Below, piece by piece: positions 14,431 to 42,900 of a stretch of 64,000 bases of DNA. Each line of letters opens with the position of its first letter. Within the stretch, counting starts at the first letter, position 1. This DNA comes from Mixia osmundae IAM 14324. Its lineage: Eukaryota; Basidiomycota; Mixiomycetes; Mixiales; Mixiaceae. The position numbers and the translations under genes were made by a program. The notes beneath the pieces were generated by a model that saw only the letters and a program-made list of their open reading frames with translations, ran no database searches and had not been told where the DNA came from. The stretch is taken from the NCBI RefSeq assembly GCF_000708205.1, contig NW_014575560.1:498501-562500 (forward strand), written 5' to 3'.

Positions 14431-16470
14431 CTACTTGATGTTGCGACATATTTCCAAGTATGCTATCGCAACGTATTCAAAGTCGGTCAAGTCATTGAAG
14501 ACTTGCGCTGAAGCTCGCACGTAGGTCTTGCCGTTATGGAAGAAGCAAGGAGCAAAGCAGTCGTATTCGTCAAAGAGGATGTCTCTGATGGCATTCTTTT
14601 GCTTGTTGAAGTCGTCGACGGATGCGAAATCGACCGGCAGTCTGACGTTGACCATGCTCGCTGTCAAGGTGCCCTCTTCATTTTCTAAGACTTCTGTGCC
14701 GAGTATCTCTGCCATTCTCCGTCCTCCTCGCATAGCGAGGCCATGGGTGTACGTCTGTATACGTTGTTCTCCGCCGAGCATTTCGCGGAAGTCTAGTGCT
14801 GTCTCGATGGAAAGATAGCGCGAAATGTCCTCCGTCGCAGGCCAGTCCCAGCCGGCAGCAAAGGTAGCCCGACCTTGCGCAATGGGTATGTACGCGAATG
14901 CACTGCCTCTCTCATCAGCTCGGTCTGCACGGGCGAGCTGACAGACTCACATCGGGAACGGTTGGACAAGAGTATGCCATCGCTTGTCGGCGTAGAGCAT
15001 ACCAGCAGGTCGATGTGCATAGAGCCACTTGTGCAAGTTACCCTGCCAAAACGTGCTGTGAGCATCAGAGCATGCTGGTAGACGGCCTCGACCGACCGCA
15101 AAAAAATCTGGTTGGGCGCTTTTGAGGTCGATGGGCCGCTGACCCGGTTCATGTGCACCATCGACAAAGGAAACGACATTGTGCCGTTTGCATAAGCTAA
15201 CGAGAGACTGCCAAGGAAGAGCGACGCCAGGCTGAGAGGATATGCCATCGAAGAAAGCGAATCTAACCGCGCCATTCTCGCGCACGATCATGCGTTCGAA
15301 CGCATCGAGGAGGGCCTTGTCTGACAAGGGATAGTTGACCTGAACATCGAGCATGCTGAGCTCCAAGTCTGGCCGACTATCTATGATGTATTGTAGCGTG
15401 TTCCTCGCTGGGTCGTAGATCGTTGAGCCAACATGCAATATCTTATCGCCCTTTTGCCAAGGGAAGCTGCGCAGGATAGCATTGGTGGAGATCGTCGTAT
15501 TGCCCACGACCGCGAGATCCTCCACGTCGCAGTTGAACAGCTTGGCCAATCGAGCGCGCGTTCTCGTGTAGACGGGCGCATAGTCTCGTTTCATGACCTT
15601 GTCAGGTGCTGCTTCCGTGCGTTCTCGCCAGTAGTGTGTCTGCTTTACGACCGGTTGAGGACACGCGCCATACGAGCCAGCGTTTAGATTAATGTAATTG
15701 CCGAAAGTCCAATATTGACGACCGAGAGCCTTTCCGAAGACAGGCAGTGTGTTTTCTGCCGGTCCTCCTGCCGATCCTCCTGTACGATCGGGTGTTATCT
15801 TGCCGTTCATGGCGCGTCGACGGTCTACTTCTGCGAATTCTTCCTCATCTTGTGAGGTGCCGACCCATCGATGGGATTTATCTTTGAGAAAGGCGGCAAA
15901 GTCCCAGAGACCTGACTCGAGACGATCTACGGAGGCCGACCACAAGTAGACGTCAACGCTCTGAGTCTGGTCTTGTGTGGCCTGAGACAGGTCGATCGGA
16001 CTGAGGAGCGGAACGAGCGCTTCTGCGCCTTTGATCGCGCCTGTACGAGCTGCGGACAGTATATGTGCTTGCACTGTACGCCTGACGTACTCCTACGGGA
16101 TGTCGTCAGTGAGGAGCTCATTTGCAAAGGGTCTCGAGCCTACGTCGCCTTCAAAAACATCGAGCAAGTCGACGTCGCTAGGTGATAGTCCCTGTACGAT
16201 CGTGCCCCTTACACTCGCTTCTTCGCGGTCCAGCGCACGGCCTATGAGCTTCTGTGCGCTCTGGATGGGTATAACCGCAGGGTAGTCGGCATGTCTGACG
16301 TGATGACGAGTGTGCTCGTAGAGAACGGCGTCGGTAAAGGTTAGCTTATCGACAGCATGGCCGATGACTCGTTCGAGCACGCCTGGGTGCATGAGTGTGC
16401 CGTAAAAGAAGAGCGCTCGAGGCTCGCCATTGCGAGCAACGTCGACTCGGGCAGAGTCATGCTGCGTCAT
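14431..16470 (-). CDS. AIG2-like (gamma-glutamyl cyclotransferase fold) fused to a class V PLP enzyme, Egt2/EgtE-like
   Basis: Exons, complement: 16470-16144, 16092-15097, 15042-14951, 14902-14431, giving 628 residues. Residues about 18-190 are AIG2-like: FFYGTLMHP near 21-29, an acidic DVFEGD|EY turn across the first splice, and VDVYLWSASVDRLESGLWDF. A Gly-rich linker leads, with no stop or start signal required, into a class V aminotransferase fold from about 225 (NYINLNAGSYGACPQP). This has VDGAHEPGQ (Asp420, His423) and the Schiff-base lysine Lys446 in GNLHKW. This family includes isopenicillin N epimerases, cysteine desulfurases and the Egt2/EgtE C-S lyases of ergothioneine synthesis. 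Intron 2 (15096-15043, 54 nt) keeps frame if retained and removes 18 residues between DFFA and GNLHKW. Two genes read through by chance is the alternative, but the joint lies inside one uninterrupted 996-base exon. A substrate cannot be assigned from sequence. Confidence 0.85.
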
Positions 16471-16503: not shown

Positions 16504-16726
16504 GACGACGAGCGAAACCAGCAGAGACGCGCGTCGTCACTTGACGTCTTGCTCGACGACGAGCCTCAATGTGGCCGGCCTGACGCATCAAGATAAGTTC
16601 GGGTGGTGCTCACTCCAGTGTCTACTCAGCGTGCTGCAAGACTATTTGATCTCATCGGGCTTCTTTCGTGCTCCTCATTCTGCGTCAGCATCGCGATAGA
16701 CTCAGCGTCTGATCCACGTACAAACC

Positions 16727-19193
16727 ATGTTCTTCAGCGAGGATATTCTCGTCAAGCAACGAGGAGGTGATCTCGCGCTGCTCTGGATCGCTGCAACAGC
16801 GACGGGAGGCACAAAGTCACGCTTGCTCAGGAAGAAAGAGATCCTCACCTGCGCCTTGCCACAGGCATGCCAGTCGCTCATCACGCCACAAGAGCCAATG
16901 GCCTTGCGCCTCATGGCGTCACTCTTGCTCGGACTCACGCGCATCTACGCACACCAGATCGAGTCCCTGACACTGCAAGTCACCCAACTCAATCTAGCTC
17001 TCAAGAGGACAATGTTTGAAGATCTCCAAGCGAACTTGATCCTCAATAACCCTACTGCACATCCTCGTCATCCCAAGGCTATCAAAGGATCTGATCACCT
17101 CGATATAACAAAGTACAAAGGCCTCAATCGAGATCGGCTGATCGCTCTCAACGCGAACAAGACGCCAGCGACGACTTTGCCCAAACGCTACGAACAGCCG
17201 CTCATCGAGTACGCACTGGAGCGTGGCCTCGGTGCAGGTCCCTTTGCCATCGATGTGATCACAAGCTACAACGATCGTGCTTACGATGCAGCGCTGCAAG
17301 AGGTTGATGAGTCGAATCATACTAGCCTGTTTGATTTGCCATCGGACGAGCTCGTCCAGCATCATCACGATAAGCTCGCGCCGGCCGCATCCGTATTGTA
17401 CGAAGCGTCTGTTGCCTTCTCAAGCTCATTCTCTCGCTACTCCGCAACGGCGAGCGCACAGGCAAGCTTCGATCTTGGAGAAGATGGAGAAGATGGTCAA
17501 GTCTGGTATGAACCTGAGCGAAGCCTTCTTCAGACCAATCGAACTGCGCCGATGTCGCGCACCTCTGCACGAATTGATATCCAGCAGACTCCTTCCTCTA
17601 TCGAGCTCGGCAGAGGCCGCGAAGGCTCACTCTCGTTGTCGTTCCCGCGCGGTCATACCAAAGCCCGATCATCTTCAATCCTCGGAAGCAACACTCGCAC
17701 TCAGGCTGCATCGTTCGACTTTGAGTTCGAGTTCGATCCCGAACAAGGTATCCTGGGCGGCTTCAGTCCCAGACTGGATGCCGCTCTTCGCGCTGCGGGC
17801 GACAATCTCGGGCGTCCGCCGCAAGGTAGTACTACTCGTCCCTATATCACCAAACAAAGCTTATAGCTGCAGAACGCGATGTATCGATCGTCGAGGGCGT
17901 GGGAGACGAGACGGGTGTCTTCAGACTCGGAGTGAGTTCGCTAAACCTCATTTCCGCCGGGTTGACGCCACAAAGCAGACTCCTAGTGGTAGCGTACGAG
18001 GCTACGAACCAGACGAGGACCTCGGTCCTGCTATTCCCTTTGAGGACGGTGCCTACGAATCACCTCGTATCTGGGAGCGCGCTTCGAGAACGCAGCCTCT
18101 CACGCCAGACCGTAGATCTGGCTCGCCAAGCTCGAGCAATGTGATGAATGGCAAACGTCACCGCAGTGAAGATGACCTCATGGCTTCAGACCATGCACCC
18201 AAGATCAAAAGAGCTCGTGCGCGTCGTCCAGTCGACTTGCTCGATAGCGAGATCTCTCTCGGCGATGCTGTGCTGAACAGCACTCGTTCGAGATACCTTA
18301 CGGACATGCAGGCTCAACGCACGTATTCGGCTGCAAAGAAGTCGGAGCGTGACGCCAAGGATTGTGCAGAAGCGCTCGTGATGATGCCGATGGCGGGCAT
18401 GAAAGCAGTTGCACTTCAGAATTTCCTCGTTGCTCCGTGCGACTCAGCTATTCGTGCCCGGCTGCTCGAAGCCCGTGGTCATTACATTGCTCATGTCCCT
18501 GCTATCAAACACTCACATCGTCATACACACGTCGGCGCCGGGGCCGTCCGCGAAGATGGTCAAATCGACTACGATGACCCGTCATGGCTTGACCCTTTTG
18601 GCGATCAAGGAGGCGCGCACGATCAGCAAGCTGACTATGAGCTCCAAGATGAATGGCCAGAAGTTGAAACCGGTCGTCAAGCACAAGTCGAACGTCCTCC
18701 GAGCCGCGTGCAATCGACCATGCCATGGAATCGTCTAGACGCATCTATCATTGAGGAGGACTATCCTGCACGCCCATCGTCTGCCCTCTCGCGTCGTTTC
18801 TCACTCGAGCCAGCCGGCCGTATGTCTCTGCCGAGACGCCGCAGCGATGCTACAGTAACCTCTCACTCGCATCCGCCTTCGCCTCCTCTCGACGCCGGCT
18901 ATGCACCTCCGCTCGACGAGTCATTCGAAGGCTTCAAACAGGGTTTCCAGCCTGACATTAGCTCAGACATATCGTCGAAGCAGGATTCTGCCAACTTTCT
19001 CACTTACCTGACTCTGCTCTCGACCAAAGAAGACGATTTGCTTCTTTCGGATGTTGCGCCCGTCATCTCCACCAAGCCGCGCGTCGCAGCCCAAGCGTTC
19101 TATCACATCCTCACTTTCGCCTCGCAGGGCGTCATCGATGTATCTCAGTCGCAGGACAAAGAGATCCACATTGCTCTGCGAAGCCGTTCGTGA
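16727..19193 (+). CDS. REC8: Rec8-type kleisin of meiotic cohesin
   Basis: Three exons: 16727-17825, 17867-17931, 17976-19193, giving 793 residues. Kleisins close the SMC1-SMC3 ring. The N-terminal module starts MFFSEDILVKQRGGDLALLW, with ALRLMASLLLGLTRIYAHQI at about 60-80 (SMC3-binding helices). The C-terminal winged helix is at about 735-790, with VAAQAFYHILTFASQGVIDV, which binds the SMC1 head. The middle is long, disordered and acidic, expected to hold separase sites. The N-terminal wording is closer to Rec8 than to Rad21/Scc1, so the meiotic paralogue is preferred but not proven. Introns are 41 and 44 nt. The gene diverges from the AIG2-PLP fusion. Confidence 0.8.
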
Positions 19194-19293: not shown

Positions 19294-21791
19294 CTATCTG
19301 CGAGAATGCGCCTCGAGCTCCTCGAGCGTCATAAAGCTCTTGCCTTGTTGCGCAGGCGGAGGCAGTCCACCAGGGGTGCCTCTGCTCGCATTCAGTAACG
19401 CCATGAGATCGAAGCCATTCAGATTCGCTGCGGGCTGCGGCTGCGAAGGCTGCCGATGGTGCGTTTGCTGAAATGCATCAAAGTCCTGTTGCTGTTTCTG
19501 CTGGTGATGCATCTGCTGCTTCTGTCGCTCTCTGAAGGCCTGTTGTTCCTGCTGCTGATAGATCTGTTGCTGTTGCATCGCAGCCAGCATCTGCGTCGGC
19601 ATCTGATTCAGCCCTGGGATATTCATGCCAGGCGGCATGCCAGTCAGTGGCGAGGCAGACGCCATCGGGCCATTTTGCAAAATCGTATTGACGGGCACGT
19701 TCTGCAAGTTGGGTATGCCGTAATGCTGATTCTGTTGCTGATGTTGGCTCTGATGCTGCTGAGCGAGTCTCGCAGCCAAGGCAGGGTTTTGGAGGATGCG
19801 CGGATCATCTCGTAATTGCGGCGGTAAGCTGGCAAGTACGTTCTCTGGCGAGAGATAGGGCTGTCCCTTACTGACATTCGAGCTGTTCCCGTTATAGCCG
19901 GGCGGGCCTCGAGCAAACATGGGTGATTGTCCGGCTGAAGCAGCGTGGTGCGGCAACGGGGCATGATGGGGCGAAGGCGCATGATGAGGCATGACGCCTG
20001 CCAGATGAGGCGGTAGCGGCGACGTTGAAGCATGCGAGTGCTGTTGTCGCTGTCTCGCTTGCGTATGATCAGACAACTGCTGCTGCTGACCCGCGTGCTG
20101 ATGCTGTGGCTGGCCCAGCAGAGCTAGCAAATTTGGCAGATTCGCTTGGGTCTGCTGCTGGCCTTCGAATCCGAGCTGAACTCGTGGCGCCTGCTGAGGC
20201 TGCGCATCGTGAACTTGTCTGAATTCGAAGCCTGGCGGCAGAGCAGGTTGCTGCTGCTGCTGCTGCTGCTGCCTATTTGCTTCCTGAGGCGGTCGTGGTT
20301 GCGCAGGCATGCTGAGCATACTCATTAGGCGTTGCATGCTTTCTTGGTCAGCAGAATTCGCTGGCGGCTGAGGTCGGCTTGTTGGCGCTTCACTCAGTCC
20401 TGGCGAAAGATCGCTGCTAGCTTTAGCTTGCGCTGCCTTCTTTTCATCCCCAAAGAAGCGTGCGAATCGACTTGAGCGTGGGGGAGCAGAGCTATCGGCT
20501 TCCGTCGCAGTCGGAGGCGCCCTCGCTAGATAGTCTGGCGAAAGCATGCTTTGCTTCGCAGGCGGTGCAGCTTCTGCAGTCGGGACCTTGAAGCTCGCTG
20601 GCGGCTCAAGCGGTCGTTCTGGCTCGCTCGGAGGCAAGCCTGCTTTTTTGCGCTCGAGCTCTTTCATTTCTGCTTTCCATGCTTGTATAGAGTCCAATTG
20701 ACCCGATCCTCCTGCTTTGCCGCCCAGACCATCATCGAGCGAGTCTGACGGTGCATCCCAAGCTGCGGAAGAATCCATAGACCAGCCAGGTGCTGACGAA
20801 CTCTGACCGTCATCACGCGTTGTGTCGTCTGCCCAAGCCGGTCGACCGAAGCCACGTTCTCTGGAGCGCTCGTCACGCTGAGCATGGCGGTCTCTGTCTC
20901 GTTCTCGTCCAGCTTCTTGGCGCATTTTGCGTTCATCGCTCAGGCCTACATGGCGATCTGATGGGCCCGTACGTGCAGCCGGACGGTCTGTTCGCCAGCC
21001 TGCTTCTGCTGCTCTGCCATCTCGGCGAGCGGCAAAGGGTTGAGCAGCGCCTGCAGCGTTGCTCCTGTCTTGCTCGCTTGGAGCACTGCTCGATGGCTTG
21101 CCAGCCTCCTTGTCTCGCGTCTGCGCAATGCATTTAGCTTGTCATATCTTCATTGATCGTTGCACGCACCCGTCTTGCACGCATCGCGCCTGGCTCTTCA
21201 TCCTCACCGAAGCGACCGAATCCATTGAAGGGATTCGCTTTGGCAAGTCTGCCGTCAGCGCCGCGATTGCCTGCTCGTGCACTTTCGCCTTGCCGCATGC
21301 CATCATATCGTCCAGGCCCATTGCGCTGATGAGGTGGTGAAGTTGCATGCTGCTGAACATTTGGCGAGCGACTGTATGAGCCCTTTTCGGTTTGTCCAGG
21401 GCCGTAGTGATCTCTCCCTGAGCCTGGTATGGACATGCGAATAGGCGGCGGATCGTAGTCACTGGCATCCCGCCGTCAGCGTGGAACGGCTAACAGCTGT
21501 TCGTTCGGCTTACCCATACCACTCCTTAAGGTCTCTTAGCGCTTCTGGACGTTTAATGAGCGGGCTCTTGCTGAGCGCGAGCAAGAAGCGCTTGTCATAG
21601 ACGCCGGTCGAGTCCAGCTGCTTTGCAGCTGTCGGCTTGATAGGTGAAGTAGAGATCATATCCATCTTTTGAGAGAGCGCAGATGGCCCAGCGACGCTCG
21701 TCGGCAAGTCGGGACCATTTGGGGTGCTCTGACCAGATGAGGAAGACGAGCGGTCATTCTCAATGTCGAGTCTGTGGAACATGGACGACAT
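19294..21791 (-). CDS. eIF4E-transporter-like (4E-T) translational repressor
   Basis: Exons, complement: 21791-21514, 21461-21170, 21120-19294, giving 798 residues. Proteins of this type bind cap-binding eIF4E and move it into mRNP granules. Tyr65 begins YDKRFLL, which fits the eIF4E-binding consensus Y-x4-L-hydrophobic. It is followed by SKSPLIKRPEALRDLKEWYG, the conserved 4E-T block. The C-terminal two thirds are very Gln/Pro/His-rich with a pure Gln run, as in RNA-granule proteins, and end LMALLNASR...MTLEELEAHSRR. I chose the Met at 21791. The frame is open further upstream to 22007, but that extension lacks conservation signs. Eap1 or another eIF4E-binding protein is the alternative. Confidence 0.7.
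20250..20272 (-). repeat. CAG/CTG run encoding polyglutamine
   Basis: About seven to eight consecutive CTG units (plus strand) encode a pure Gln run in the 4E-T-like protein. Imperfect CAG-rich stretches surround it from about 19460 to 20270, making the whole exon low-complexity on both strands. Confidence 0.85.
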
Positions 21792-22505
21792 CTTGCTCAC
21801 ACTCGTACGGTCACGAGAGGGCGGCTCCCAAGTTACTTCGTCTGTCAGGATCCGTACGAGCTGCTCTTCACAGCTTGGTTCGCTCTGTCCGCACACGAGA
21901 GGCTGCCTCTCTGCCGGTGTGCGCTGCTGATCGCTCGCTGGGCAGACAAGCGCACCAGGCTCGAGGCAGCTTTGATTCTGGCTTGCCGTTTCGCGTAAGG
22001 AACACACGATAAAGTGAAGGTGGCGCCCGACGATGCCTGCCTGCCATGCTCTCGGCTCCGCTCAGTCACCGTACCCGCAAGAACTTCATTCTATGCTCAC
22101 TGGTCCGCAAGCCTATGCTTACTTCATCAAGATCGCTGGCGAGGATCCTTCCGCGATCATGATTCGGGACTTCAGTGGTCCGTTTAGCCCTTTTTGCACC
22201 TCGACTGCGAGCATGCGAGTGCTTGCCGTAGAGACGCAGCGCCCTATCAGTCCAAACGCAATCCCAATGATGCAAGCTTCTGAGTCAGAGCCATTGACGC
22301 GCCAACAGATCGTGCGACCTTGCCCATCTCATCTTTAAAAAGTGGCTCGTCTCCTGGGACTGTATCTCGATCCTTTGCTCACCAAGCCACAAGGTAGCGC
22401 ATTCACCGCCGTGCGAAGGCTCAGTCAGAACCCCAGGGTAAAGTATGAAGAAGCTGCATGGGTGCTTCTACACCTTTGTCCTTGCCTAGCACAAGGGTCT
22501 CTGCC
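21792..22505. other. Upstream region of the 4E-T-like gene; no gene called
   Basis: A 714-base interval between the 4E-T-like start and the end of the first tandem secreted-protein gene. A plus-strand frame (22033-22338) contains a protein-like stretch (LTGPQAYAYFIKIAGEDPSA), but no signal peptide, family match or confident splice pattern was found. It may be an unrecognised small gene or only regulatory DNA. Confidence 0.3.
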
Positions 22506-23023
22506 CTAATGCGTGAGCTTCCCCCTGGCATCTGAGAAGGCGCTCACCGGCTCGCAAGTGATGATGCCATCGAGCGAATCATAGGCCGGCAGAATCTCGC
22601 CGTCGCCACCTCTGATGCTCGTCATCACCTGGCCATTGATGCAATGATAGCCGTATTGGCCGCATTGATTCCACTGTGTGCCTATCAGCCGCGAGAGCGC
22701 CAAGAGGCAAATGACCGCCCACAGGCTCGCCTTGCGGCGTCGTGCCGAGGGTAGCGCCGTAAATACCGGGGCGAATGCAGAACGAATCATGGTTATCCGC
22801 GTGACCGGGATCCTGCAAGCGCGATGAAGCGAGACGGACTGCGAGTCAGACGAAAGTACCTTCACAGCAAGCTCTGCCAGAGATCTCGTCATCGTCAGCC
22901 AAAACGCTATCCTGCAACGAAAAGTTTCCACTTGCGAACATATTGGCCTTGAGGGCAGAAGCTGATATGAAGGCATGTTACGGCAGCAAACGCGCAAGCA
23001 AGCACAAGCGACTTGAACAGCAT
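22506..23023 (-). CDS. Small secreted protein, tandem family copy A
   Basis: Exons, complement: 23023-22932, 22884-22860, 22812-22723, 22673-22506, giving 124 residues. A signal peptide is clear (MLFKSLVLACAFAAVTC). The mature part has the order CPQGQYVR, SLAELAVK (encoded partly by a 25-nt exon), HDSFCI, LGTTPQGEP, WNQCGQYGYHCING and GIITCEPV, with about five cysteines. No known domain is recognised. Size, Cys content, signal peptide and tandem copies resemble fungal effector-like or wall-surface proteins. Introns are 47, 47 and 49 nt at positions shared with copy C. Confidence 0.7.
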
Positions 23024-23255
23024 TTTGGTCTCCTTCAGTGAGGTCAAGCAAGCAGAGAATTCTTGTCTTCGCCGCCTTGACAGCTAGCAAAGGAGATCGT
23101 ATCGCATTCCGTAGGCACAGCAACAGACAGTGCAACCGAATGCGTACAACCAATGCTCGGCTCCATAGCAGTCACCGATGCTTTCTCAGCACAGTGCTCT
23201 CTGTGACTCACATTCGACTTGGTTACTTTCAACCAGAAGCATAGCTCGCCAGCTT

Positions 23256-23722
23256 TCAAGTGATGGTACCATTGATCATGTCGTATGCCAGTATCGGCTT
23301 ACCGTTCAAGTCTTTGAAGTGACTAATCACTTTGCCGTCAATAGAATGATTAACGTACTGTCCGCATTGCAGCCACTGTACGCTTGTCAGATCTGGGAAC
23401 AAGCCAGAAGCAGGGCGCTGACAGGCTCGCCACGGATGGTCTGGCCAACCCCTGCATTGCTCGCGCTCGGCTGAATGCAAAAAGAGTCACGGTTTTCCGA
23501 ATGACCAGAATCCCGTGAAGATGTTCAGACGAGCAAGAGAGCGAATTTTGAATCTACAGGCCTTGACGACTAGTATTGTCGTCGTGACGATCACATTGCA
23601 TTTCTCTCTATGAATACAAGCAGAGCGCCCACGAACATGTACGCCGCCCGGGCACGAGCTGATGTGAAGGCACATTACCAAAACGACGGTGTATGCGAAA
23701 CCAATTCAAAATTGAAGAGCAT
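23256..23722 (-). pseudogene. Tandem secreted-protein family copy B, apparently decayed
   Basis: The two 3' exons are well preserved: HSENRDSFCIQPS...GEP, a 47-nt intron, then WLQCGQYVNHSIDG and a stop at 23256. The 5' part aligns with copy A (MLF start, CLHISSCPGG), but the reading frame is out of step just after the start region. No AG acceptor is visible where copies A and C have theirs before the HDSFC exon, and the second WxxCGQY-region cysteine is replaced by Ser. This reads as a family member losing function. An unusual splice pattern cannot be excluded. Confidence 0.6.
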
Positions 23723-23973
23723 TGTCGTTACTGTGCGTGAATCAGCAATCAACTCAGATCCTGCGAGGTTGCTGGTATTGATAGAGGTTGCTGGTATTGA
23801 TAGAGATAGTAGTGTAGCCGGTGTCGTTCCTCGACCGAAAGGCGACGGCCAAAAGTCATGGGAACCGTTGCATCTCATGGAAACCGTAGCGATCCTGGAG
23901 ACAGGCAATGATGCAGGACAACAAGCGACTGCGACGATGTGCATGCAATCACCGGTAGACATTTCAGCATGTG

Positions 23974-24495
23974 TCAGCCTGAACGCAGATGAGCTTGGAG
24001 GTCTATCGGCTGCAGAACATTTACCCGAATACAATGCATAGAGTATCCTGCCGAGTCTTGGAGTGTGTAACGACCGCCGTTGTTGGGCTGTTCCTTACTC
24101 TGCACGGTGCCGTCCAGGCAAACGTACTGATACTGTCCGCATTTGTTCCAACTGTACCGCAAGGAAACTAAGCTGAGCGGATTCGATTTGAAAGTGAGAC
24201 TTGCGGTTCGTTGTTAGGAGTCGTACCGAGAGGATAATCATACAGCGAGAAGATGCAAAAGCTGTCGTGGGTGTCCGATTCATCGGGATGCTGCAGACAC
24301 GTGAGCGAGGCATGGATGGCGTGCATCGACGCACTTCGACGGCGAGCTCTACCAAGTTCCTCGCTTGAGCGAAATGTCAGTCTGGAAAGCAGGATACGCA
24401 CGAACGAATTGTGCCGGTGGCAGACAGATGTTGATGTTCTTGAGGCACGAGGCGAGCGTGACGAGGCACGAGGCGATTAGAATGTTCAAAAGCAT
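23974..24495 (-). CDS. Small secreted protein, tandem family copy C
   Basis: Exons, complement: 24495-24398, 24359-24335, 24290-24205, 24151-23974, giving 128 residues. Signal peptide MLLNILIASCLVTLASC. The mature part parallels copy A: PAQFVR, NLVELAVE, HDSFCI, LGTTPNNEP, WNKCGQYQYVCLDG, and a C-terminal SMHCIRV. The third intron begins GCAAGT, a GC-AG intron. Using it restores the P-W-N-x-C junction seen in copy A, where the same intron begins GT. The second exon is 25 nt in both copies. No function can be assigned. Confidence 0.7.
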
Positions 24496-24668
24496 CTTTG
24501 TCCGTAAGTCTGCTGGGCGGATGAAAACGGCCGATGTCACGAGAGGATATAGAGGCGACAACGGCATGACGACCAGGAGGATGTGGGAAACGAAAGGTTC
24601 ACGCGTCGAACTGGTTTTCGGATGCTTTGCATTCAACGGCTGCCCGTACTCGCTATGTTCCTAGCGCT

Positions 24669-25736
24669 TCATTCCAGATGATGATCTGCATGCGTCTCCT
24701 GCGACTGCATCGTCAGCACGGGGCTGTGCAACGAGACGCAGAACGCACAAGATGTCTTTGGCGTGAGCGGATTAGTGACGACGATCTTCAGATCGATATC
24801 TTCGGTGCCATCCCAGGGATTGGTCGAGAAGAACATCTTGTCTATGAGTGATCAAGTGCCTCAGTGAGTCACCATTGCAAGAGCAGATACGAGCTTACGA
24901 TGGGGTAGCCAGGTCGTATCGCACAACGGTCCGCTTTGCGTGTAGACATTGTTGCAGTCCATTGTCAGTTGTGCAATGTCTCTGTCGAAGGAGTCCCCTG
25001 CAAAGGCTGTCAGATGTGCAGCCTCCTGTGAGTCGCAAGACGGCACACATTCTGTGGTCATGACGTTGAACCTGTCATCAGAGATCAGAGAGGATGAAGT
25101 CAGCACGGGCGCGTCTGGAACCAAGCGATGGGCCAGACGTTGCATAGTACGTGCCGATGCAGCATCGACGGAACTCCGGATCAGAGGCAGGCGTGTCACC
25201 ATGCAGCTGACCTGGCTCGGTCATGAGCGCTCGCAACTCCTTCCGGATCTCGACCTTGGCGAGGTGAGATGAATCTCGACTGATGAGGGGCTGGATTGGG
25301 CACAGACTTGAGCATTACGTTCCCGAAATACTGCTTACATACCCATGTCCCTTCTGGTTTGTCGATCTGCACGGTCTGTCAGCGATGCTGCTCTCAAACA
25401 TTCGAATCAGACTGAACCCATTCGGACTGCAGAGGACCTCGCTTGGGCTCTTTGACGCGGAATGTGAAGGTCTCCTGCGCAGGAGTTCGACATCTGATGA
25501 CCTTTTTGCTGCTCAGGAGGCGTGCGACTTACAGCCGGCATGCCAAAGTAGACGGGATGTCCGTCCTTTTCGTAGTGGAAGTCAAATTGGTGGGTGAACT
25601 TGTAGGTATACCATCCGGGCTCAGTGCCTAAAATGCTGTCGAGGGCGGTGATATTGAGAGGAGCAGCGCCGACGAGGACTTTGCTGTCCAGCAGACCTGC
25701 TACAAGGAGCGCACTGCATGCGACCAATATCGCCAT
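24669..25736 (-). CDS. Hypothetical secreted Cys-containing protein
   Basis: A signal peptide starts at 25736 (MAILVACSALLVAGLLDS). At least five exons are needed. Exon 1 ends near 25545 after YFGMPA. Further coding blocks are ETFTFRVKEPKRGPLQSEW, a short VEIRKELRALMTEP block near 25250, a Cys block near 25070-24900 (TTECVPSCDS ... MDCNNVY ... GPLCDTTW), and a last exon from about 24842 to the stop at 24669-24671 (SCAFCVSLHSPVL). The two middle introns are longer or less regular than usual, so inner boundaries are approximate. No known domain. It belongs to the block of secreted proteins with the tandem family. Confidence 0.5.
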
Positions 25737-26109
25737 GGCTGAGGATTTGTTCGCAAGACCACTTTGTGCGAGGTCTCGAGCAGCAGCGATGAAAATTCAA
25801 GCGAGGAGCCAGGTCAGCAAAGAAGCGAAGGCGTCATCGCTACAATGCGGGGTAAGGGGCAAGCTTCTTTGGCCTCACGTCCTCGGCTTCGAGCTGGACT
25901 ACACGATCAGGTGATACTTTGTTTGGCTCGAGAAAGTGAATCTGCATGTATCTCGGTGACATCGGTGCTTGCCAGCGTGCAGCTTGGCTGTGTGCACTGG
26001 ACTGTTTCGGGTCACCAAGTCGTGTCGTCACTTTGAGCGGATCGGGGGAGTACCAGCTCATCGGCGCTGCTTTGCTGCATGAATGACAAGCGCCCATATG
26101 GAGGTCTCA
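25737..26109. other. Intergenic stretch between secreted-protein genes
   Basis: About 370 bases between two minus-strand secreted-protein genes. An antisense 85-codon frame ends here, but it lacks a signal peptide or recognised motif. It is taken as promoter of the 25.7 kb gene plus 3' UTR of the next. Confidence 0.35.
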
Positions 26110-26890
26110 TCACCTGCCGACCGGGAGGAGGTTGCACTGACAGAGCTCGTCTGTGAGTTTATGGATGTTGCCACATGCCATCTTGATCAGAGCCGTAAAG
26201 TTTTCGGTCATTTTGACTAGAGCGCATGTCAGAACTACAGAGCCTCGCACGCCAGCCCTCGCATTTGGTAGTCGAGAAGCGGAACCTATAAGTGATTCAG
26301 CCAGGCCCAAGTGAGAGTGGGGCCACTCGCGTAGCTTGAATGTGTGCGATGCAGCAGTTGTTGTAGCGGCGATCCGACGATGTGACGGGGCCTTTGGGCA
26401 GGCCACGCCTCCACAGTGTAGGACGAAGAGGCTTTTCCAAGGGTACTAGGGATGTAGCCGCCACTTTCCTTGCCTGGCCTTGGCCGCGGCGCTGATGAGG
26501 AGCGTGCACCTCTGCACAGGCTGATGCATACCAGATCGTCATCGAATCTCATCGTCTATGCTGAAACATACGTCAGTCCTCAAGGCTTTGTGCAATCGAG
26601 CGCACGGTGGTCACCCTAGCCATCGCGCACGGCCACGACCTAGAAATCAAAGCAGCCCTGTTGCTTAGAGCATCGGATTGTGCCCGGGTCGAGCCAATCG
26701 GGCCTCACAGCCTCGTCGAAACAGAGCGCTTGCGGCGATGAGGCCTGCTTAACATCGAAGAACACAGAGATTTGATAGCCGATGGGACCCTAGATGACTC
26801 GTCACGAATGCTGAGCGTGCTGACGTTTGTCGGCACAGCGTGGCCGAGAGAGCTCGCCAGAACAGCAGCGAGAGAAGGCGACAGCATCAT
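26110..26890 (-). CDS. Hypothetical secreted protein, multi-exon
   Basis: A signal-peptide-like start lies at 26890 (MMLSPSLAAVLASSLG, then VPTNVSTLSIRDESS). A short intron near 26790-26745 leads to ASSPQALCFDEAVRPDWLDP and TIRCSKQQGCFDF. Later coding blocks include DDDLVCISLCRG and GGYIPSTLGKASSSYTVEAW, and a C-terminal block KMACGNIHKLTDELCQCN before the stop near 26118. The inner exon joints are not certain. Several Cys and a signal peptide fit the secreted block; no domain is recognised. Confidence 0.45.
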
Positions 26891-27051
26891 GACAGTCTGT
26901 CATTGACCTGCGTTCGAGGAAAGAGGGTGAAGCTGAGGATGAGCAGTCTTATCAGGCCACAGGGGAGTTGCAATCGAACGTTGAAACGCGCGGAAAATGA
27001 CGAGAGCTGTCTGTCCACGTGTTCACGTTGCGCTGCTAACAGTACGCCAAC

Positions 27052-27896
27052 ATGCTGCCCTCTTTGTTAATATCCATCTCTATGTCTGCAATCATCTCTG
27101 CCATTCCTCTGCTCCCGCAAGATCCGGGTTCTGCTGCTCCGGCTGCCATGCGAGCCCTGGTTTCGGAGACGCCTCAGATGCTCGATCAGCTCTACAAGCT
27201 GACCTGCAAGTCAAGCAAACGGACATTTGCTTAGACTGACGAAATGTCGCAGTCAGCTATGTTACTCTCTGTACCATCCGATCAAGCTCTTCAGCCTCGC
27301 TGGTGGGCTATCAACTCTACACGCGTACGCCCGATGAGCCGGCGAGGGCTGACTTGTACGTCTCCTGGGACATTGCGGAGCGTCGCACCACGACCGAGCT
27401 TGTACGGATACGTCAGGCCACTAGACGCCGCTCAGAATGGTACGCAGACATCGAAGAACGACGGCATCGATGCTATGCTGCCATATGGACTCTACGAAAG
27501 CGAGGCCGGCACGAGCCATGTACAGTTTGTCAAATCTTACGAGCTGGACCTTACCGACTCGTAGGTGTCGCTACTCCCTAGCATGGGATAGCTGGCTGAT
27601 ATATAGATGGCAGGCGTTTGTATCTTGTCAACCAATGTTGCCACGTCTACGTTCTTTGGGATGCCGTCTTTTTGACTGCTCAGCACTACTGGCTCGACAG
27701 AGGCAGCAATGCCCATTACATCTGCAGTTCCAATCTCGAAGGCTGCGAGGAAGACAAATTTGAGAAGCTCGGCTTGCCTAGTATGCAGTCAGTGGTCAGC
27801 GTTCAATGTACTGACTAACTATCATGCAGTGAAGCAAGAATGCACTCTCGCAAGTTTCAAAGTAGGCGAGAGACGTCCAAACAGCTCATGAGTCCG
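27052..27896 (+). CDS. Hypothetical secreted protein, multi-exon
   Basis: Signal peptide MLPSLLISISMSAIISAIPL at 27052. The first exon ends near 27211 (YKLTC). Following coding blocks are LVGYQLYTRTPDEPARADLY, VSWDIAERRTTTEL, KNDGIDAMLPYGLYESEAGT and HVQFVKSYELDLTD. A Cys-containing block reads NQCCHVYVLWDAVFLTAQHY and ICSSNLEGCEEDKFEKLGLP near 27640-27785. Introns are short and their exact limits, as well as the last exon, are uncertain. It lies on the opposite strand to the other secreted genes. No known family. Confidence 0.45.
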
Positions 27897-27941
27897 CGTG
27901 CACGAATCACATCGTGTACGTTCGCCATGCATTACGTCTGG

Positions 27942-29798
27942 TCAGAAGCGGGGCAGAACAGGGACGTCTTCCAGGCTATTTGTCTTTTCGAATGTTTCGT
28001 CGGTTTCCTCTGAGCAAGATCCCTGAGATCGTTCGTCGGGCGTCTGATGTAGACCGATGTCGCGTTGAATCAGCTCTTCTGCTGCGAGATCTGACATGAT
28101 CTGCGCATGGTTGTATCGCTGCTCGACCGTATTCGCGATCTTGAGCAAGACGTGTGCGCCCCAGATTTGCACATATACCAGTGAAGAGACGATCATAACG
28201 AGTATCACAGACCATGCGATGCCAAAGGGCGTGGTGTTCTGTCTCTGCTTCACGGCCCAGAGCGTTATGACATAGATTGCCGATCCCATCTTGCAGACCA
28301 TCGATTGTATCGCAGCGAACCGCAGAATCCTTCGAGTCGTGCTTGGACGAAGTTTCATACGATAAGCGAGCAATCCGACAAACACGCTCTGCTCTGTCGT
28401 GGCCTGGAAAAGCCATACGTTAGATGTTGCCATGGTAGTCGGATCGCGCGTGATCTGGAAGCGCAGAGCACCGAACATAATGATGAAGATCGTAAAGATA
28501 TGGTGCGATAACAGTTGAAGTCTGTAAAAGTAGCGATGAGCATATGCCTACTTTTGCTCCAAGCAACAGACTTGCCTTAAGTGAGGTCGGTATATCATCT
28601 CGAAAAGATACAGAGCGCAGATGGCCATGCCGCAGCCGAAAAGTGCTTGACCGTCGAATTGAGAATACTCCGCTCGCACGACTCGAATAGCAGCGAGCTG
28701 TACCGCCAGGACGACGGCGGTTACGACAATGGTGACGACGTAGGTGACGCATGCTTTCTGAATCGCATATGGTAACGTGGCGTAACCTGACCAGTAACGT
28801 CTGAATGCATGGGATGTGATGCTCGCCATGAGCCAGAGCGACGCGAAAGCGATGAGTGAGTTTATAGAGAATGCCCATACCGTACTGGGATAAATTTGCG
28901 TTGTTGAGAGCGCTGATAACGCCTCGAGTGAAGCTTGAGAGAGATGATCAGAGTTGGGACCTTCGGATGCGAAAGGTGCCAAAAAGTTCGTGGATGAATT
29001 GAACGCCGCCATGATGCCTGATCCCTGGCATTCATAAGACGAACCAGGCAAGAGTGAGCTGCAGTAAAGGCCTGGTTCAGCAGTGACTGCAGTCAGGCGG
29101 GTATACCGACACCAGAGCGAGTCCGCCGAAAGGTGATAGGCATTGCCGAGGCCAACCTCTTGCGTGAGTGCAAGCGCGCACGATGAGACATTCACAGAAG
29201 CATCACAAGAGGCCTTCTGCACCCTGCAAATGGTAGCTGCCAGCTGACCGGCCGTCAGATGTGTCGAGTCTGAATAGGTCGCGTAAGGGTTTTGCGCGTT
29301 GGACTTCATTGAGGGCGCAAGCACTGGCATCGCTGCGGTGACGAGATCTGCATAGTTCGGGAATGCGGCGTCATATTCAGTGATAAGTCCTTCGTCGTTG
29401 TAACGAAGCCAAAACGATGCGGTCAAAGCGCCGGGGACGGTATCGACGAGCGAACCCATCGTAAAGACGACTGACGCGACTGGACCCTGGATCGCAATGG
29501 AAGATGGTATCGCGCTGACGATCTTGGGCGTCACCGAGAGCTGACCGGGTGACGAAGCTGCGAGGAGCCCATAGAGGAAGAGCGTATTGTTCGTGTTCGA
29601 AGTCATACTTCGACCGAGCGAGGTGTGCCCGACCACACCATCGACGAAGAAAGGCGAGCTGCCCTTGGCTAGGATCGCACTCGCATAAGGTTCGACGAAG
29701 CTGGCACCAAACTTCTGTAGCTGCCTCTCGATCTCGAATGGCTGAAGAGCTATGGCTGAACTGGCCAACGCCGCGAGCGAGATGATTTTGGCCAGCAT
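27942..29798 (-). CDS. Seven-pass membrane protein with signal peptide and large N-terminal ectodomain
   Basis: Exons, complement: 29798-28576 and 28521-27942, giving 600 residues. A signal peptide (MLAKIISLAALASSAIA) precedes about 310 residues of ectodomain with several Asn-x-Ser/Thr sites and eight or so cysteines (CRVQKASCDASVNVSSC is typical). Seven hydrophobic helices follow, among them STVWAFSINSLIAFASLWL, CVTYVVTIVVTAVVLAVQL, ALFGCGMAICALYLFEMIY and IAWSVILVMIVSSLVYVQIW. The C-terminal tail is acidic and cytosolic by the positive-inside rule. The layout resembles a receptor, but I know no matching family. The single intron begins GCAAGT (GC-AG); splicing joins AG to A CTT and carries on an open membrane segment. 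Confidence 0.75.
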
Positions 29799-36917: not shown

Positions 36918-39907
36918 ATGGAGCACGGTGCTCGGACAAACGGTCATCATGTCAATGGCCATGATCAGCAAGCTGTCGAAGAGCCAGAGATCATCGAGCT
37001 CCGCAAAGCTGCGGGACCCGATTCCTGTAGCTCCGTGCGGGACGACATCGTCAGAGGCTTGCAGCGAACAGAGCGCACAATTCCGGGCAAACAGCCAGAA
37101 GACGAGCAGTATGCTTGGACCAAGTCTATCCCTACCAGTCAGCCCGGCCAATCCGGCTGTCCAAGCATGAGCTAATACAATCTATACAGTTGTGCTCTAC
37201 GATGATCAAGGCCTGCAGCTCTATGCGAAGATCACGGAGCAGGCAGATTACTACCTCTTTGAAGCAGAGCGCAACATCTTGCGAACCCATGGCGATGAGA
37301 TCGTACGGGGCCTTCCCGAGCTCGTTGTGGCTACTGACTGACCGCTGCGTAGGCAAATCGCATGTTCGGCCGCAGACATGCCCTGAACGTGGACCTCCCC
37401 TCGCAACAGGACGAGGCCCCAGAGGGTGAACACGACGCTCCACCGCTCAACGGGACTGCCGAGGTGAAGCGCAACGGCGACGAGAAATGGCGAGTCCCCC
37501 TGCGCGTGGTGTTGACGCAATCTGACGCGCGCGCAACAGGGGAGATTTTGAAGTTGGCGTACATAATCAAGGCGTCAATGGCGCTCTGGGATCGCGGGAC
37601 GTTCGGAAAACGGGCTCCCTTCATGCTCGACCACCTACCGAGCCCCAGACGGAAGCGGGAGTCATCATTGAGATGGGAGCGGGCAGTCTGCAGAAGACAA
37701 GTCACCTCTTGCGCTCGCTTGCTCGGCTTTTGCCTTCCGAACACGACCCTTCTGTCTCCCGTGCTAGCCAGGCAGCATCGATCAAGCCGAGTCAGCCGAT
37801 ACAGAATCTGACTTACTACGCACTCGATCTCGAGCGACCGGAGCTTGTCTCAACGCTCAGCAGCCTTTGCCAAGAGCATCCGCACATTGTGGCCTCGGAC
37901 AGTGCATCGCATGACAAGATTGTGGTCAAAGGCATCTGGTCGGATTACGATGATGCCTTGCCGGAGATTCGCAAAGGCGCGTTTGACACTTCCAAGGCCG
38001 ACGTCAAACGCTCGATCCTCTGGCTTGGCTCTTCGATCGGCAATTTTGGCAGAGCGGAAGCATCTGCTGCGCTCAAGTCCTTTGCACAAGCCGGTCTCCG
38101 TGCCGGTAAAGGCGATACGTTCTTGCTCGGTGTGGATGGCTGTGATGATGTCGCCAAGATCGAGCGAGCGTACAACGATCGAGCAGGAGCAACTGCCGAC
38201 TTCATCCTCAATGGCGTGAGCAATGCCGGCAGATTGCTTGGCAAGGGCGCTGAGCAGTTGCATGCCGACAATTTCGACTACGCCAATCGCTACAACCAGC
38301 TAGAGGGTCGACATGAAGCGTATGTCCGCGCCAAGCAGGATCTGCTGCTCGAAATTGACGGCCAGGCCGTTCGCATTGAACGTGGCGAGCTGCTGTCCAT
38401 CGAATGCAGCTACAAGCACAATTCCGTGGAGTGTCATCAGCTTTTCAAGGAGGCCGGTCTCCGCGTCATTCAGGACTGGTCAGATTCCGAAGGCACATAC
38501 AAGCTATATTTGCTCGAGCGACCATCTTTCCATTTTCCTTCGCCTTTCATCACGAGCAAAACGAGCAAAGAGGGCGATGTCTCGCCTTTCAATTTGCCGT
38601 CCTTGGACGATTGGCAGCAGCTCTGGACCGCCTGGGACTGCGTCACTATGAGTATGGTCCCTCGTCATCTGCTTCACACTAAGCCAATCGATCTACGTCA
38701 TATCATCTTATTTTACCTGGGGCACATCCCAGCTTTCCTAGACATTCATCTATCACGATATCTACACGAGGAGGCAACCCATCCCGCTTACTTCCACGAG
38801 ATCTTCGAACGCGGCATTGATCCTAACATGGAAGACCCTACGAAGATTCACAGTCACTCGGAAGTGCCCAAAGACGAAGCAGCGTGGCCTTCACTGGCAG
38901 AGATTGTCAGCTTCAAAGATCGTGTCAGAGCGCGTTTGCGAGCAGTTTACAGGGGCATCGACGGTGCTCAGCATGTCGAGAGACGCCTGGTTCGCACACT
39001 CGCAATGGTCTACGAACACGAGGGTCTTCATCTCGAAACACTCCTCTATATGCTTGCGCAGATTGGCGACAGAATCAATGCGCCCGCCGGTTTTGCAGAA
39101 CCAGACTGGTCTGCTCTTGCAAAGCGTTGGGACGATAGCGTTACTGCTGAGGGCGATCTGCGCTCCAGCGAAGTGTCTTTCGAAGCCACCGAGCTCGAAT
39201 ATGGTCATGATGATGACGACAGCGCCGATGCAGACATTGACTATGATGCTGCGCACGAATTTGGCTGGGACAACGAATCACCTGTGCGTAGGGTACAAGT
39301 CGACAGCTTCTCGATTTCGCTGCTGCCGATCAGTAACCTTGAATACTCCTCCTTCGTGCAAACTCAGTCTGATGCTACATTAATACCTTCGTCATGGATC
39401 GCCCTGCCCGGTGGAAACTATGGCGTGCGAACGTTACTTGGTACCGTTCCGTTCCACGTGGCACAACACTGGCCTGTGATGGCATCCGGCAAGCAGCTTC
39501 AAGCTTTCGCAATGTCAAAGGGCGGTCGTCTACCTACCGAGCCTGAGCTGCGTCTTTTCCTTTCTCGCTGTCTTGTCGACCAGCCCAGCGCCAATATCGG
39601 CTTTTGCAATTGGCATCCTGTACCGGCAGCTCTGCCTGTCACTCTGCGCGATGGCAGCTCGACAGGCTCGCACAATGGCGGCGTGTTCGAATGGACCAGC
39701 ACTTTGTTCGAGCGCCACGAAGGCTTCAGCGATTCTAAGCTGTATCCAGCATATAGCTCTGACTTCTTCGACGGCTGCCATTCTGTCATGCTCGGCGGCT
39801 CGTTCGCAACGATGCCACGAATCGCAGGCCGATCCGCATTTCGTAACTGGTACCAGACCGCATATCCATACGTTTTCGCAGGCGGAAGAGTTGCCTACGA
39901 CGCCTAA
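36918..39907 (+). CDS. EGT1: Egt1, ergothioneine biosynthesis methyltransferase-sulfoxide synthase
   Basis: Four exons: 36918-37137, 37190-37302, 37353-37489, 37540-39907, giving 945 residues. The fungal enzyme trimethylates histidine to hercynine and then couples cysteine oxidatively to give hercynylcysteine sulfoxide. The N-terminal EgtD-like domain has VIIEMGAGSLQKT (SAM site), YYALDLE and WLGSSIGNF. The C-terminal EgtB-like half has a DinB-type iron site: GHIPAF (His about 552) and the H-x3-H-x-E motif HEGLHLE (His650, His654). It ends in the FGE/C-type-lectin-like domain with GFCNWHPVPA and SAFRNWYQTA. The third intron begins GCGAGT, a GC-AG intron; using it yields EKWGDFEVGVHNQGVNG, matching fungal homologues. 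Upstream Mets (36870, 36846) are possible. Confidence 0.92.
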
Positions 39908-39975: not shown

Positions 39976-42900
39976 TTAGGCACGTCGCATGGGCATTGCC
40001 TTGGTGAGCGAAGTCGCCGGCTTGCTTGTGGGCTTTTTCTGAGCGTCTTGAGCCGGTGTGCGAGTGAAAGCTTTGGCGACATCGCTCATCGATTTTTGAG
40101 CTTTCTTGCTGGTGTCTCGCTTTGTTTTGTTGGGCCCTGATGCTTTCTTTGGCGCCGGCATTACCGCAGCTGACGATGGCTTCCGACGGAAGCCTCTGCA
40201 AAGAGCGACATAGTCCCTGCCATATTCCATTACAAAGTCCTGAGTGATGCCGGGCGTCTTGCTCAATGCATCGGCACTATCAGGCAAGCGAGCTGTGATC
40301 TGAGCGAGCAAGGCGTCACTGCAGATCTGCTTCGCGTCGACGTTCGCTTTGATCGCTTGATCCCGTCGCAGGCGACAGAACTGATCGTAAGGCGTATCGG
40401 GCGCCATTGATCGGGCATTGTGAGACTGTGTACTCTCTAGCAGGGCCAGCTGCGTCTCCGCATCCTCCTCGTCATCATCTTCCAGATCGTACACGACCTT
40501 AGCAGGAGCTTGCTGACGAGCCGCAACAGGCGAGCTATCGTTGTCCCAGAAGCCTTGCTCGATCTCTTGCTCTTCGATGGACTTGCGCGGAGCCTTTGCC
40601 CCTTTTGTCGCTGCGTTCGCGCTGCTACAGATCAAGTTGACTGTTCTGTGCCCATTGAGAACTTCGCGGTGATGTTTGCCCAATATGCAGTAAGCGCTTG
40701 TAAAGCCCATCCCGTTCGTTTCGTGACGTTCGCCGAGGATGCCTTCGTTGCACATGATCTGCAGCAGCCTCTCGATGTCTGTACGCGCCAGACTACTACC
40801 CGCGCCAAAGCCTGCCAGTCTGTCGTGTCCGCTCTCTACGACCTGTAGTCGGAAGGCTGAGCATGTTCTGTCAATACGATGAAAGTCTCACCTTCTTGAG
40901 TTTGCTACCCCTGAAGATGTCGGCACAATGGACAAGGGTGATGCCCTTTTGGTCTTGAATCTCTCGGACGAGGGTGATGATGAGCTTAGCGTATGATGTC
41001 ATGTTGACAAGCTCCTGGCCAGTGCCAGACTTTCGGCAATTGTCGCACGTAGCGTGACATTGCTCGCGTGCAAAGGTCTCGCCGAAATACTGCAGGACCT
41101 GTGTTCTTCGGCAATCGATCGTGTTGAATGCATACTTCACCATGTCCTGGACGTGGGCTCTCTGTCTCTGCTTCTGCTCGTGGCTGCCTTCCCCGGTGTC
41201 TATGAGCCTATACAGGAGGCGCGTGTCGTTGAAATTGAAGTAGAGGATGCAGACGGAGTCGCCGCCGTCTCTGCCAGCGCGCCCAGTCTCTTGATAATAT
41301 GCCTCAAGCGAACCAGATATCGTAAAATGCAGAACAAATCGAACGTTAGCCTTGTCAATGCCCATGCCGAATGCGATGGTAGCGCAGACGACGTGAATTT
41401 TGCCCCTTTGCCAATCTGCCTGAATCCTGATTCGGTCGTCTTTTGCCATACCAGCGTGGTAATGATGCGCTTTGACGCCGTGCTGAGTCTTGAGCGCCTC
41501 TGCAATGTCCTCGCATTGCTTCTTCGACAGACAGTATATGATGCCGCACAGTCCGGCGAAGTCTCGTTTGATCAGATCAGAGATGTCCTTTATGATGAGC
41601 TTGCCTTTTGGTCTGACTTCATAACGCAGATTGGGTCGATTGAAAGATTGCGACAGAACAAGGCAGTCGTTGATGCCGAGCGACGTGATCACGTCCTGCT
41701 TGACGCGTTCGTTAGCAGTGGCAGTGAGAGCCATGATGGGCACGCCGGGATACTCGCGCTTGATCGATCCAAGCTCTTTGTAGTCCGGTCTGAAGTCAAA
41801 GCCCCAGCTGGATATACAATGCGCCTCGTCGATGACGAATCGAGCTAATCTTTGCCTTCGATGGAGGTTACGTAAGACATCTTTGAACAGCGTGCTTTTT
41901 GCAATCATCTCTGGCGTCACGTAAATGAGGCAGGGCCGCGTATCATCGTCTGCCGTTCGGAGCTCGTTGATGACAAAGTCGCGATCTGATTTTTTGAGAT
42001 CGCTATTGAAGGCCAACGCGATCACGTCTTTGTCCATCAGAGCTTGGCATTGATCGTGTATCAAGCTCAGCAGGGGACTGATGACGATAGAGACACCTCT
42101 CGTCTTGCCGCTCTGCACAACGGCAGGCAATTGGTAGCAAAGTGATTTGCCACCGCCCGTGGGCATCAATATGAACACATCATCCGCTGCCAGGGTTGCA
42201 TTGATCGCCTTGAGCTGATTTGGGCGAAAAGAGGACAGTCGGAAGTGTTTGTTGAGCACTTTAAGCACGTCGCGCGACCAAGGGAATGACATGTCATTCC
42301 TCGATACGGTTGCTCTGACCGTTGTGCTCTTTACGCCGGGCGCAATTGCTGCTTGTACCGGAGCTGGGGGCAAAGATGTGACTTTGGTCGGCCTGACAGA
42401 CGCCGACGAGACTGATTTGGAGAGACTGATGACAGGAAGAGCCTTATTTGACAAGGAGACCAGGGGAATACGCTTAGTGCCAATATCTGGCTCTGCATGA
42501 GGACTCGCCGGCCTTTTGGCTGGGACACGCGCGGCTGCGACCGCTCGCCGGGGCGCAGGTCTGAGCTCGACATCGGACGAAAGGCCATCATCCTCGAAGA
42601 AATCGAGCGGCATGTCCTTTGTGAGGTCAGCAGATACCGGCTTCGGCGCTGAAATTGGTTGTTGGCATACACGTGCAGTCGGCTGATGATCAGGCGTGTG
42701 TGCTTTGTCTGGCACGGCTGAAGGCTCAGGATCTGGCCTTGAGATGCGAGACGATGGTCCAGAGACTTCGGAAGAAGCAGGATGAGGCCTCCGACCGCCT
42801 CGCTCGCTGGACGAGCTCATACGGAGAGCGGAGGGATCAGCATCGCTGTAGAAGCCCATTTGGGCGAGTTCTTCATCGATGAGGGTCTCTTGACGAGACA

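Follow-up and report, generated by a model that had tools for sequence, protein, structure and literature searches.

A conserved fusion of AIG2-type and Egt2-like domains in Mixia osmundae suggests an overlooked step in making or repairing ergothioneine

In the 64,000 nucleotides of Mixia osmundae IAM 14324 analyzed here (the window), one locus appeared to join an AIG2-type gamma-glutamyl cyclotransferase domain to a PLP enzyme resembling Egt2, the lyase of fungal ergothioneine synthesis. The questions raised by this locus are whether both halves belong to a single protein and what such a protein could do. The gene consists of four exons on the minus strand (16470-14431) coding for 628 amino acids, and its spliced product matched an annotated protein of the same strain (P0001) with 100% identity from end to end. 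All the features described next are on the minus strand. Exon 1 (16144..16470, 327 nt) carries the start codon and encodes the N-terminal half of the AIG2/GGACT domain, which includes the FFYGTL motif and the conserved Glu of DVFEGD (Glu107, codon 16152-16150). Intron 1 (16093..16143, 51 nt, GT..AG) interrupts this domain, whose second half lies in exon 2 (15097..16092, 996 nt) followed by a linker and the PLP domain up to about its midpoint. The linker comprises 19 residues (209-227; 15739..15795), as defined by the edges of the two domain profiles. After intron 2 (15043..15096, 54 nt, GT..AG, without an in-frame stop), exon 3 (14951..15042, 92 nt) begins with GNLHKW, including the PLP lysine Lys446 (codon 15030-15028), and after intron 3 (14903..14950, 48 nt, GT..AG) exon 4 (14431..14902, 472 nt with the stop) encodes the C-terminal portion of the PLP domain. 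An earlier note on this DNA, made from the letters of the window, had placed the whole run from AIG2 to PLP domain inside the 996-base exon. The junction and the linker are indeed there, but this wording needs correcting because exon 1 already encodes the beginning of the AIG2 domain; GNLHKW is found in exon 3. Upstream, a divergent Rad21/Rec8 cohesin gene (16700-19193, plus strand) begins about 250 bases from the start codon.

The coordinates, strand and frame proposed in that note for a single continuous two-domain protein were correct, and both halves exceeded their Pfam cut-offs: GGACT/AIG2 at residues 20-122 (36.5 bits, cut-off 22.8) and Aminotran_5 at residues 254-560 (56.6 bits, cut-off 21.5). 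The structure model of the protein had a mean pLDDT of 82.5 and a pTM of 0.63, and its best 50 fold matches were all PLP enzymes. Linker residues 210-223 had a pLDDT below 50, so the mutual placement of the halves is not given by the model. Fourteen aligned fusions (out of 45 two-domain matches) showed invariant residues in both halves. An internal start at Met204, giving rise to a separate PLP protein, had no support; this position belongs to the tail of AIG2, and some of those 14 proteins have a residue other than Met there.

The distribution of this domain order was then established. The search with the full-length protein gave 61 matches, 45 of them with both domains (P0001-P0045), six with the PLP domain only and ten with AIG2 only, and the PLP profile search (best 120 of 342 matches) added 102 proteins, 24 with both domains and 78 with the PLP domain only. 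Homologue counts throughout this work rest on this full-length search, on these best 120 of 342 PLP profile matches and on the best 120 of 1040 AIG2 matches. Absence of the fusion from all relatives would have contradicted the reading of the earlier note, but many of them have the same two-domain order: among the matches listed, 69 of the 153 PLP-bearing homologues had an AIG2 match, which was near-complete in 62. The fusion-bearing taxa were Mixia, many Microbotryomycetes, Jaminaea, Tremella, Naganishia, Kwoniella, Cryptococcus, Rhizoctonia, Ceratobasidium, Tulasnella, Serendipita, Ramaria, Sphaerobolus and Hysterangium, which we take to represent Pucciniomycotina, Tremellomycetes, early Agaricomycetes and one species of Ustilaginomycotina. 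The proteins without an AIG2 match (84 of the 153 among the matches listed) included those of Agaricales, Polyporales, Russulales, Hymenochaetales, Dacrymycetes, Mucoromycota and bacteria, and also one extra Rhodosporidiobolus copy, a short Serendipita model, Gautieria and Botryobasidium. In these last two (P0064/P0172 and P0068/P0181, respectively), the last five residues of the AIG2 model are the first five of the PLP model; since these ends are shared and the contigs are of equal size, each most probably represents a single fusion gene that was annotated as two proteins.

These two cases indicate that models of the junction do err, and a wrong gene model joining two neighbouring genes was therefore considered for Mixia. 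This explanation is extremely improbable, and we regard it as ruled out by the uninterrupted open frame over the junction and by the presence of both domains in 69 of the 153 PLP-bearing proteins among the matches listed. The two-domain fusion is real and not a chance joining. Second copies were observed in Rhodosporidiobolus, one without AIG2 (R. poonsookiae; P0012, P0128) and one a short fusion of 476 amino acids (R. lusitaniae; P0026, P0045), and therefore the fusion can be accompanied by another Egt2-like gene. In Rhizoctonia solani, a model of 835 amino acids (P0024) has a PITH domain besides the two of the fusion and may be a gene-model merger. No description of an AIG2/Egt2 fusion was found in the literature searched, which consisted of titles, abstract openings and passages of some papers.

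By both sequence and fold, the solved structures closest to the PLP half were those of Neurospora crassa Egt2 (5uts, E=1.4e-59; 5v12), followed by LolT (8dl5) and cysteine desulfurases. The PLP half shares with N. crassa Egt2 the fold, about 30% identity, the PLP lysine, the equivalent of Tyr134 and the fungal clade, whereas the 501-residue chain of the latter lacks the N-terminal AIG2 domain of about 200 residues. Among the matches listed, Lys446 was present in all 69 fusions and Tyr335, which aligns with Tyr134, the residue mutated in the Egt2 Y134F entries, was kept in 67. The mixture-model tree placed the Mixia PLP half in a clade with N. crassa Egt2 and LolT, with Mucoromycota outside (96/97); in it, LolT grouped with N. 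crassa Egt2 (100/99), and the branch order of Mixia, Jaminaea, Egt2/LolT and the rest was without resolution, as it was in the quick-model tree. LolT is a PLP Mannich cyclase close to both Egt2 and the PLP half, with no AIG2 domain in the match, and its position calls for some reserve, as it illustrates how an enzyme so near to Egt2 can differ from it in function. The PLP half had been described as Egt2/EgtE-like. The first term is upheld by sequence, fold and tree; the second is not, because the score for the EgtE family (NCBIfam TIGR04343) was 23.4 bits, far under the cut-off of 400.

A separate Egt2, named in the earlier note as a finding that would contradict its reading, was sought in the Mixia genome and none was found: the PLP half as query matched its own locus alone (E<=1), and one candidate passed the first stage of the search for Egt2-like genes. 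The other class V loci of this genome were, by best match, SerC, IscS and two glyoxylate-type aminotransferases; of these, SerC alone was above its curated NCBIfam cut-off, the rest being scanned as pieces. EGT1 (37165..39907, plus strand, 5' end approximate) had Methyltransf_33 and FGE-sulfatase matches over the cut-off and a DinB_2 match just under it, and was the single Methyltransf_33 locus found in the genome. It starts about 20.7 kb from the fusion gene, which agrees with the distance of some 20 kb given before. An ergothioneine gene cluster had no support from the Pfam scan, which covered 10 of the 19 ORFs of at least 230 amino acids between 6000 and 46000, the smaller ORFs at 21100-28600 being outside it; the scanned ORFs between the fusion gene and EGT1 were the Rad21/Rec8 cohesin, a DNA ligase and four without any match. 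Near EGT1 and convergent with it there is a RecQ-type helicase gene (40874-43390, minus strand).

Published data on other basidiomycetes were also considered. In yeast, the standalone Egt2 of Grifola (477 amino acids) is reported to raise ergothioneine from 1.74 to 2.76 mg/L, 57% over Egt1 alone (PMC7437059). In Lentinula, Lecsl1 is described as having no lyase activity and Lecsl2, acting after Egt1 in vitro, as giving little ergothioneine in comparison with the no-protein control (PMC11677154), data that lend weak support to an Egt2 role. Neither Lecsl2 nor Grifola Egt2 is part of our two PLP trees. Additionally, ergothioneine makers are reported in Rhodotorula and Sporobolomyces (PMC11993508), both of which are fusion-bearing genera. 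The published RtEGT2, RHTO_04309 (PMC11089744), may be the Rhodotorula toruloides fusion P0029, although no match of this locus tag to that entry was found. Because of the structure matches, the conserved residues, the sole locus accompanied by EGT1 and these data on Grifola, Lentinula and the two fusion-bearing genera, the fusion protein was taken, with the reserve that LolT calls for, as the Egt2 of this fungus, and it is quite likely that its PLP half is Egt2. As a whole, the gene very probably encodes a basidiomycete Egt2 to which a conserved domain of the gamma-glutamyl-cyclotransferase type is joined.

The AIG2 half was as conserved as its partner, the mean pairwise identity being 46.7% for the AIG2 half and 47.5% for the PLP half (1891 pairs from 62 fusions among the matches listed). 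Like other members of the AIG2/GGACT family (PF06094), it has a significant Pfam score, the YGTL motif and the conserved Glu, and differs from them in being joined to a C-S lyase. Its profile matches included Arabidopsis 2jqv and 2g0q. The separate AIG2 relative P0164 gave a model with a pLDDT of 89.8 whose fold matched AIG2, ChaC, GGCT and GGACT structures, with modest TM-scores (0.34-0.52 by query for the 13 best). Among the matches listed, Glu107, the presumed catalytic residue, was kept in 67 of the 69 fusions, the exceptions (P0063 and P0067) being proteins whose AIG2 match begins only behind that position, and in all 130 AIG2 proteins without a PLP domain. We infer that it is the counterpart of Glu82 of GGACT (E82Q entry 3jud). 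The Gly of YGTL was kept in 62 of the 69 fusions, with six gaps. Among the fused AIG2 halves, those of Jaminaea, Sporobolomyces roseus and Serendipita vermifera are on long branches, as might be expected if this half were a non-catalytic scaffold or regulatory module; however, the near invariance of both residues makes such a role very improbable.

In mycobacteria, EgtC belongs to the class II glutamine amidotransferase family. The Mixia protein is not a member of it: Pfam matches up to E=1 were GGACT and Aminotran_5 alone, with no class II glutamine amidotransferase. The proposed parallel to EgtC and EgtE, that is, gamma-glutamyl removal followed by C-S cleavage, could consequently hold at best in role, as the families of both halves differ from those of the mycobacterial enzymes. 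The chemistry of the AIG2/GGACT family releases 5-oxoproline and not glutamate. The AIG2 half was the sole GGACT match found in the Mixia genome, which elsewhere contains ChaC and hydantoinase-B (5-oxoprolinase-like) genes; this suggests a dedicated enzyme for glutathione and a possible recycling of 5-oxoproline. In other fungi AIG2 has other annotated partners, namely a phospholipid/glycerol acyltransferase (PF01553) in Ustilaginaceae (P0058, P0060, P0061; likewise P0057 and P0059) and a metallophosphatase (PF00149) in Bondarzewia and Astraeus (P0049-P0050).

The relationship between the two domains was also followed in fungi where they are encoded by separate genes. Among the matches listed, 30 species had a separate AIG2 gene and a separate Egt2-like gene, and in 15 of them both were on contigs of equal recorded size, which was taken as a shared contig. 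When the two species with overlapping models were removed, the contig was shared in 13 of the 28 species against about 0.8 expected from random gene placement in an assumed genome of 35 Mb, and the genes were on different contigs in the other 15. For Abortiporus, with two Egt2-like entries (P0107 and P0153), P0153 was used, its contig being of the same size as that of the AIG2 entry. The locus tags of the two genes were consecutive in Jaapia, three apart in Taiwanofungus and about 400 apart in Sanghuangporus (7967 and 8375), the latter indicating that a shared contig does not always mean that the genes are neighbours.

Three trees were compared. The first PLP tree, built with a quick model, contained 81 of the 153 retrieved proteins and two PDB sequences, 33 of them labelled as fusions. 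The second, built with a mixture model, had 70 rows, 32 of them fusions, after dropping 13 rows (fragments, metagenome rows and thinning) and relabelling Gautieria and Botryobasidium as fusions. The AIG2 tree had 74 rows from 199 AIG2-bearing proteins among the matches listed; it was rooted on one ascomycete row, which is unsafe, and its Mixia branch was weakly placed (85/40). All three roughly followed the species history. In the mixture-model tree, all the Tremellomycete rows and 14 of the 15 Microbotryomycete rows were fused, and the separate PLP genes of later Agaricomycetes formed one clade of 25 rows (100/98), with those of Calocera, Auricularia and Sistotremastrum outside it. Of the separate Agaricomycete AIG2 genes, 33 of 34 rows were in one clade with weak support (85/48), Cristinia being outside. 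The fewest changes between fused and separate labels were seven in the mixture-model tree, nine in the quick one and four in the AIG2 tree, counts from which gains and losses cannot be told apart. The simplest history is an early joining that was later split; the alternative is that neighbouring genes were fused more than once.

With respect to the function, the co-conservation of the domains, their spread in Basidiomycota, the shared contigs and the fact that no other Egt2-like gene was found in Mixia lead us to infer the role of the fusion protein. The PLP half would act as a C-S lyase converting hercynylcysteine sulfoxide into the ergothioneine precursor, pyruvate and ammonia. If EGT1 used gamma-glutamylcysteine, gamma-glutamyl-hercynylcysteine sulfoxide would be formed, and the AIG2 half, as an active cyclotransferase, could free the cysteine amino group of the lyase substrate, or of close analogues, from its gamma-glutamyl residue, yielding 5-oxoproline and a free cysteine sulfoxide acceptable to the PLP half. 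As evidence against an obligatory step, Mixia EGT1 has Tyr where EgtB of Mycobacterium thermoresistibile has the Asp after FRNW, which we presume to be a gamma-Glu-Cys contact (the literature search gave no confirmation of this). Fungal Egt1 is described as using cysteine (PMC10903977; PMC11993508), and in vitro the Lentinula enzyme is reported to have produced the sulfoxide from this amino acid (PMC11677154); de-glutamylation is therefore unlikely to be obligatory. In the same direction, the account of Grifola Egt1 and Egt2 in yeast describes ergothioneine production with no AIG2 protein added, and some with Egt1 alone (PMC7437059), and hence the lyase step can leak and is not strictly needed. 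The AIG2 step would therefore be a repair or feeder reaction beside the main cysteine route. We hold this de-glutamylating role as a tentative, leading guess for the AIG2 half, and the whole explanation, the fungus's Egt2 with an AIG2 half in that role, has in our estimate a probability of about 0.5.

It is also possible, although doubtful, that the PLP half is Egt2 and the AIG2 half an independent housekeeping cyclotransferase, for instance of the GGACT type acting on gamma-glutamyl amines, the fusion merely ensuring joint expression of neighbours. This would account for the separate AIG2 protein of many fungi, for the PF01553 and PF00149 partners, for the different contigs in 15 of the 28 separate-gene species among the matches listed and for the increase of yeast ergothioneine reported for Grifola Egt2 without AIG2. 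However, many lineages of Basidiomycota have retained the fusion or the shared contig, and the trees of the two halves roughly agree, which exceeds what a neutral accident would leave.

In gliotoxin synthesis, a PLP C-S lyase acts after the GliK step. GliK is likewise a gamma-glutamyl cyclotransferase in a sulfur route, reported to act on a glutathionylated intermediate (PMC6923255), but there the genes are separate and the scaffold is another. Similarly, for the sulfur odorants of Lentinula a C-S lyase and a gamma-glutamyl transpeptidase have been named as responsible, the lyase being from a family that includes the Egt2-like Lecsl2 (PMC11677154). Both may be regarded as fungal precedents for a route that combines removal of a gamma-glutamyl group with cleavage of a C-S bond. 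They would also fit a general processor of gamma-glutamyl-cysteine conjugates, which would de-glutamylate S-substituted cysteines or their sulfoxides and then split the C-S bond, ergothioneine being one use among others. This is improbable in Mixia, where the sole Egt2-like gene found coexists with EGT1.

A bolder and rather unlikely form of the de-glutamylating explanation is an all-in-one enzyme dating from early Basidiomycota, which would release the gamma-glutamyl group as 5-oxoproline and then cleave the C-S bond while EGT1 worked partly on gamma-glutamylcysteine in vivo. By drawing on that pool, EGT1 would couple glutathione and ergothioneine synthesis, and the view that fungi lack a de-glutamylating step would be wrong for the whole phylum.

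The argument that fungi have no glutamyl-removing partner in ergothioneine synthesis deserves a test in Basidiomycota, where the fusion and the shared contigs make the question testable. Ergothioneine in the diet is described as coming mainly from mushrooms (PMC6797849), and engineering with basidiomycete Egt2 may have included or omitted a second enzyme domain unnoticed. Even in its ordinary reading, the protein is a well-defined two-domain candidate enzyme with one clear predicted active-site residue, and its conservation suggests an overlooked step in the making or repair of ergothioneine.
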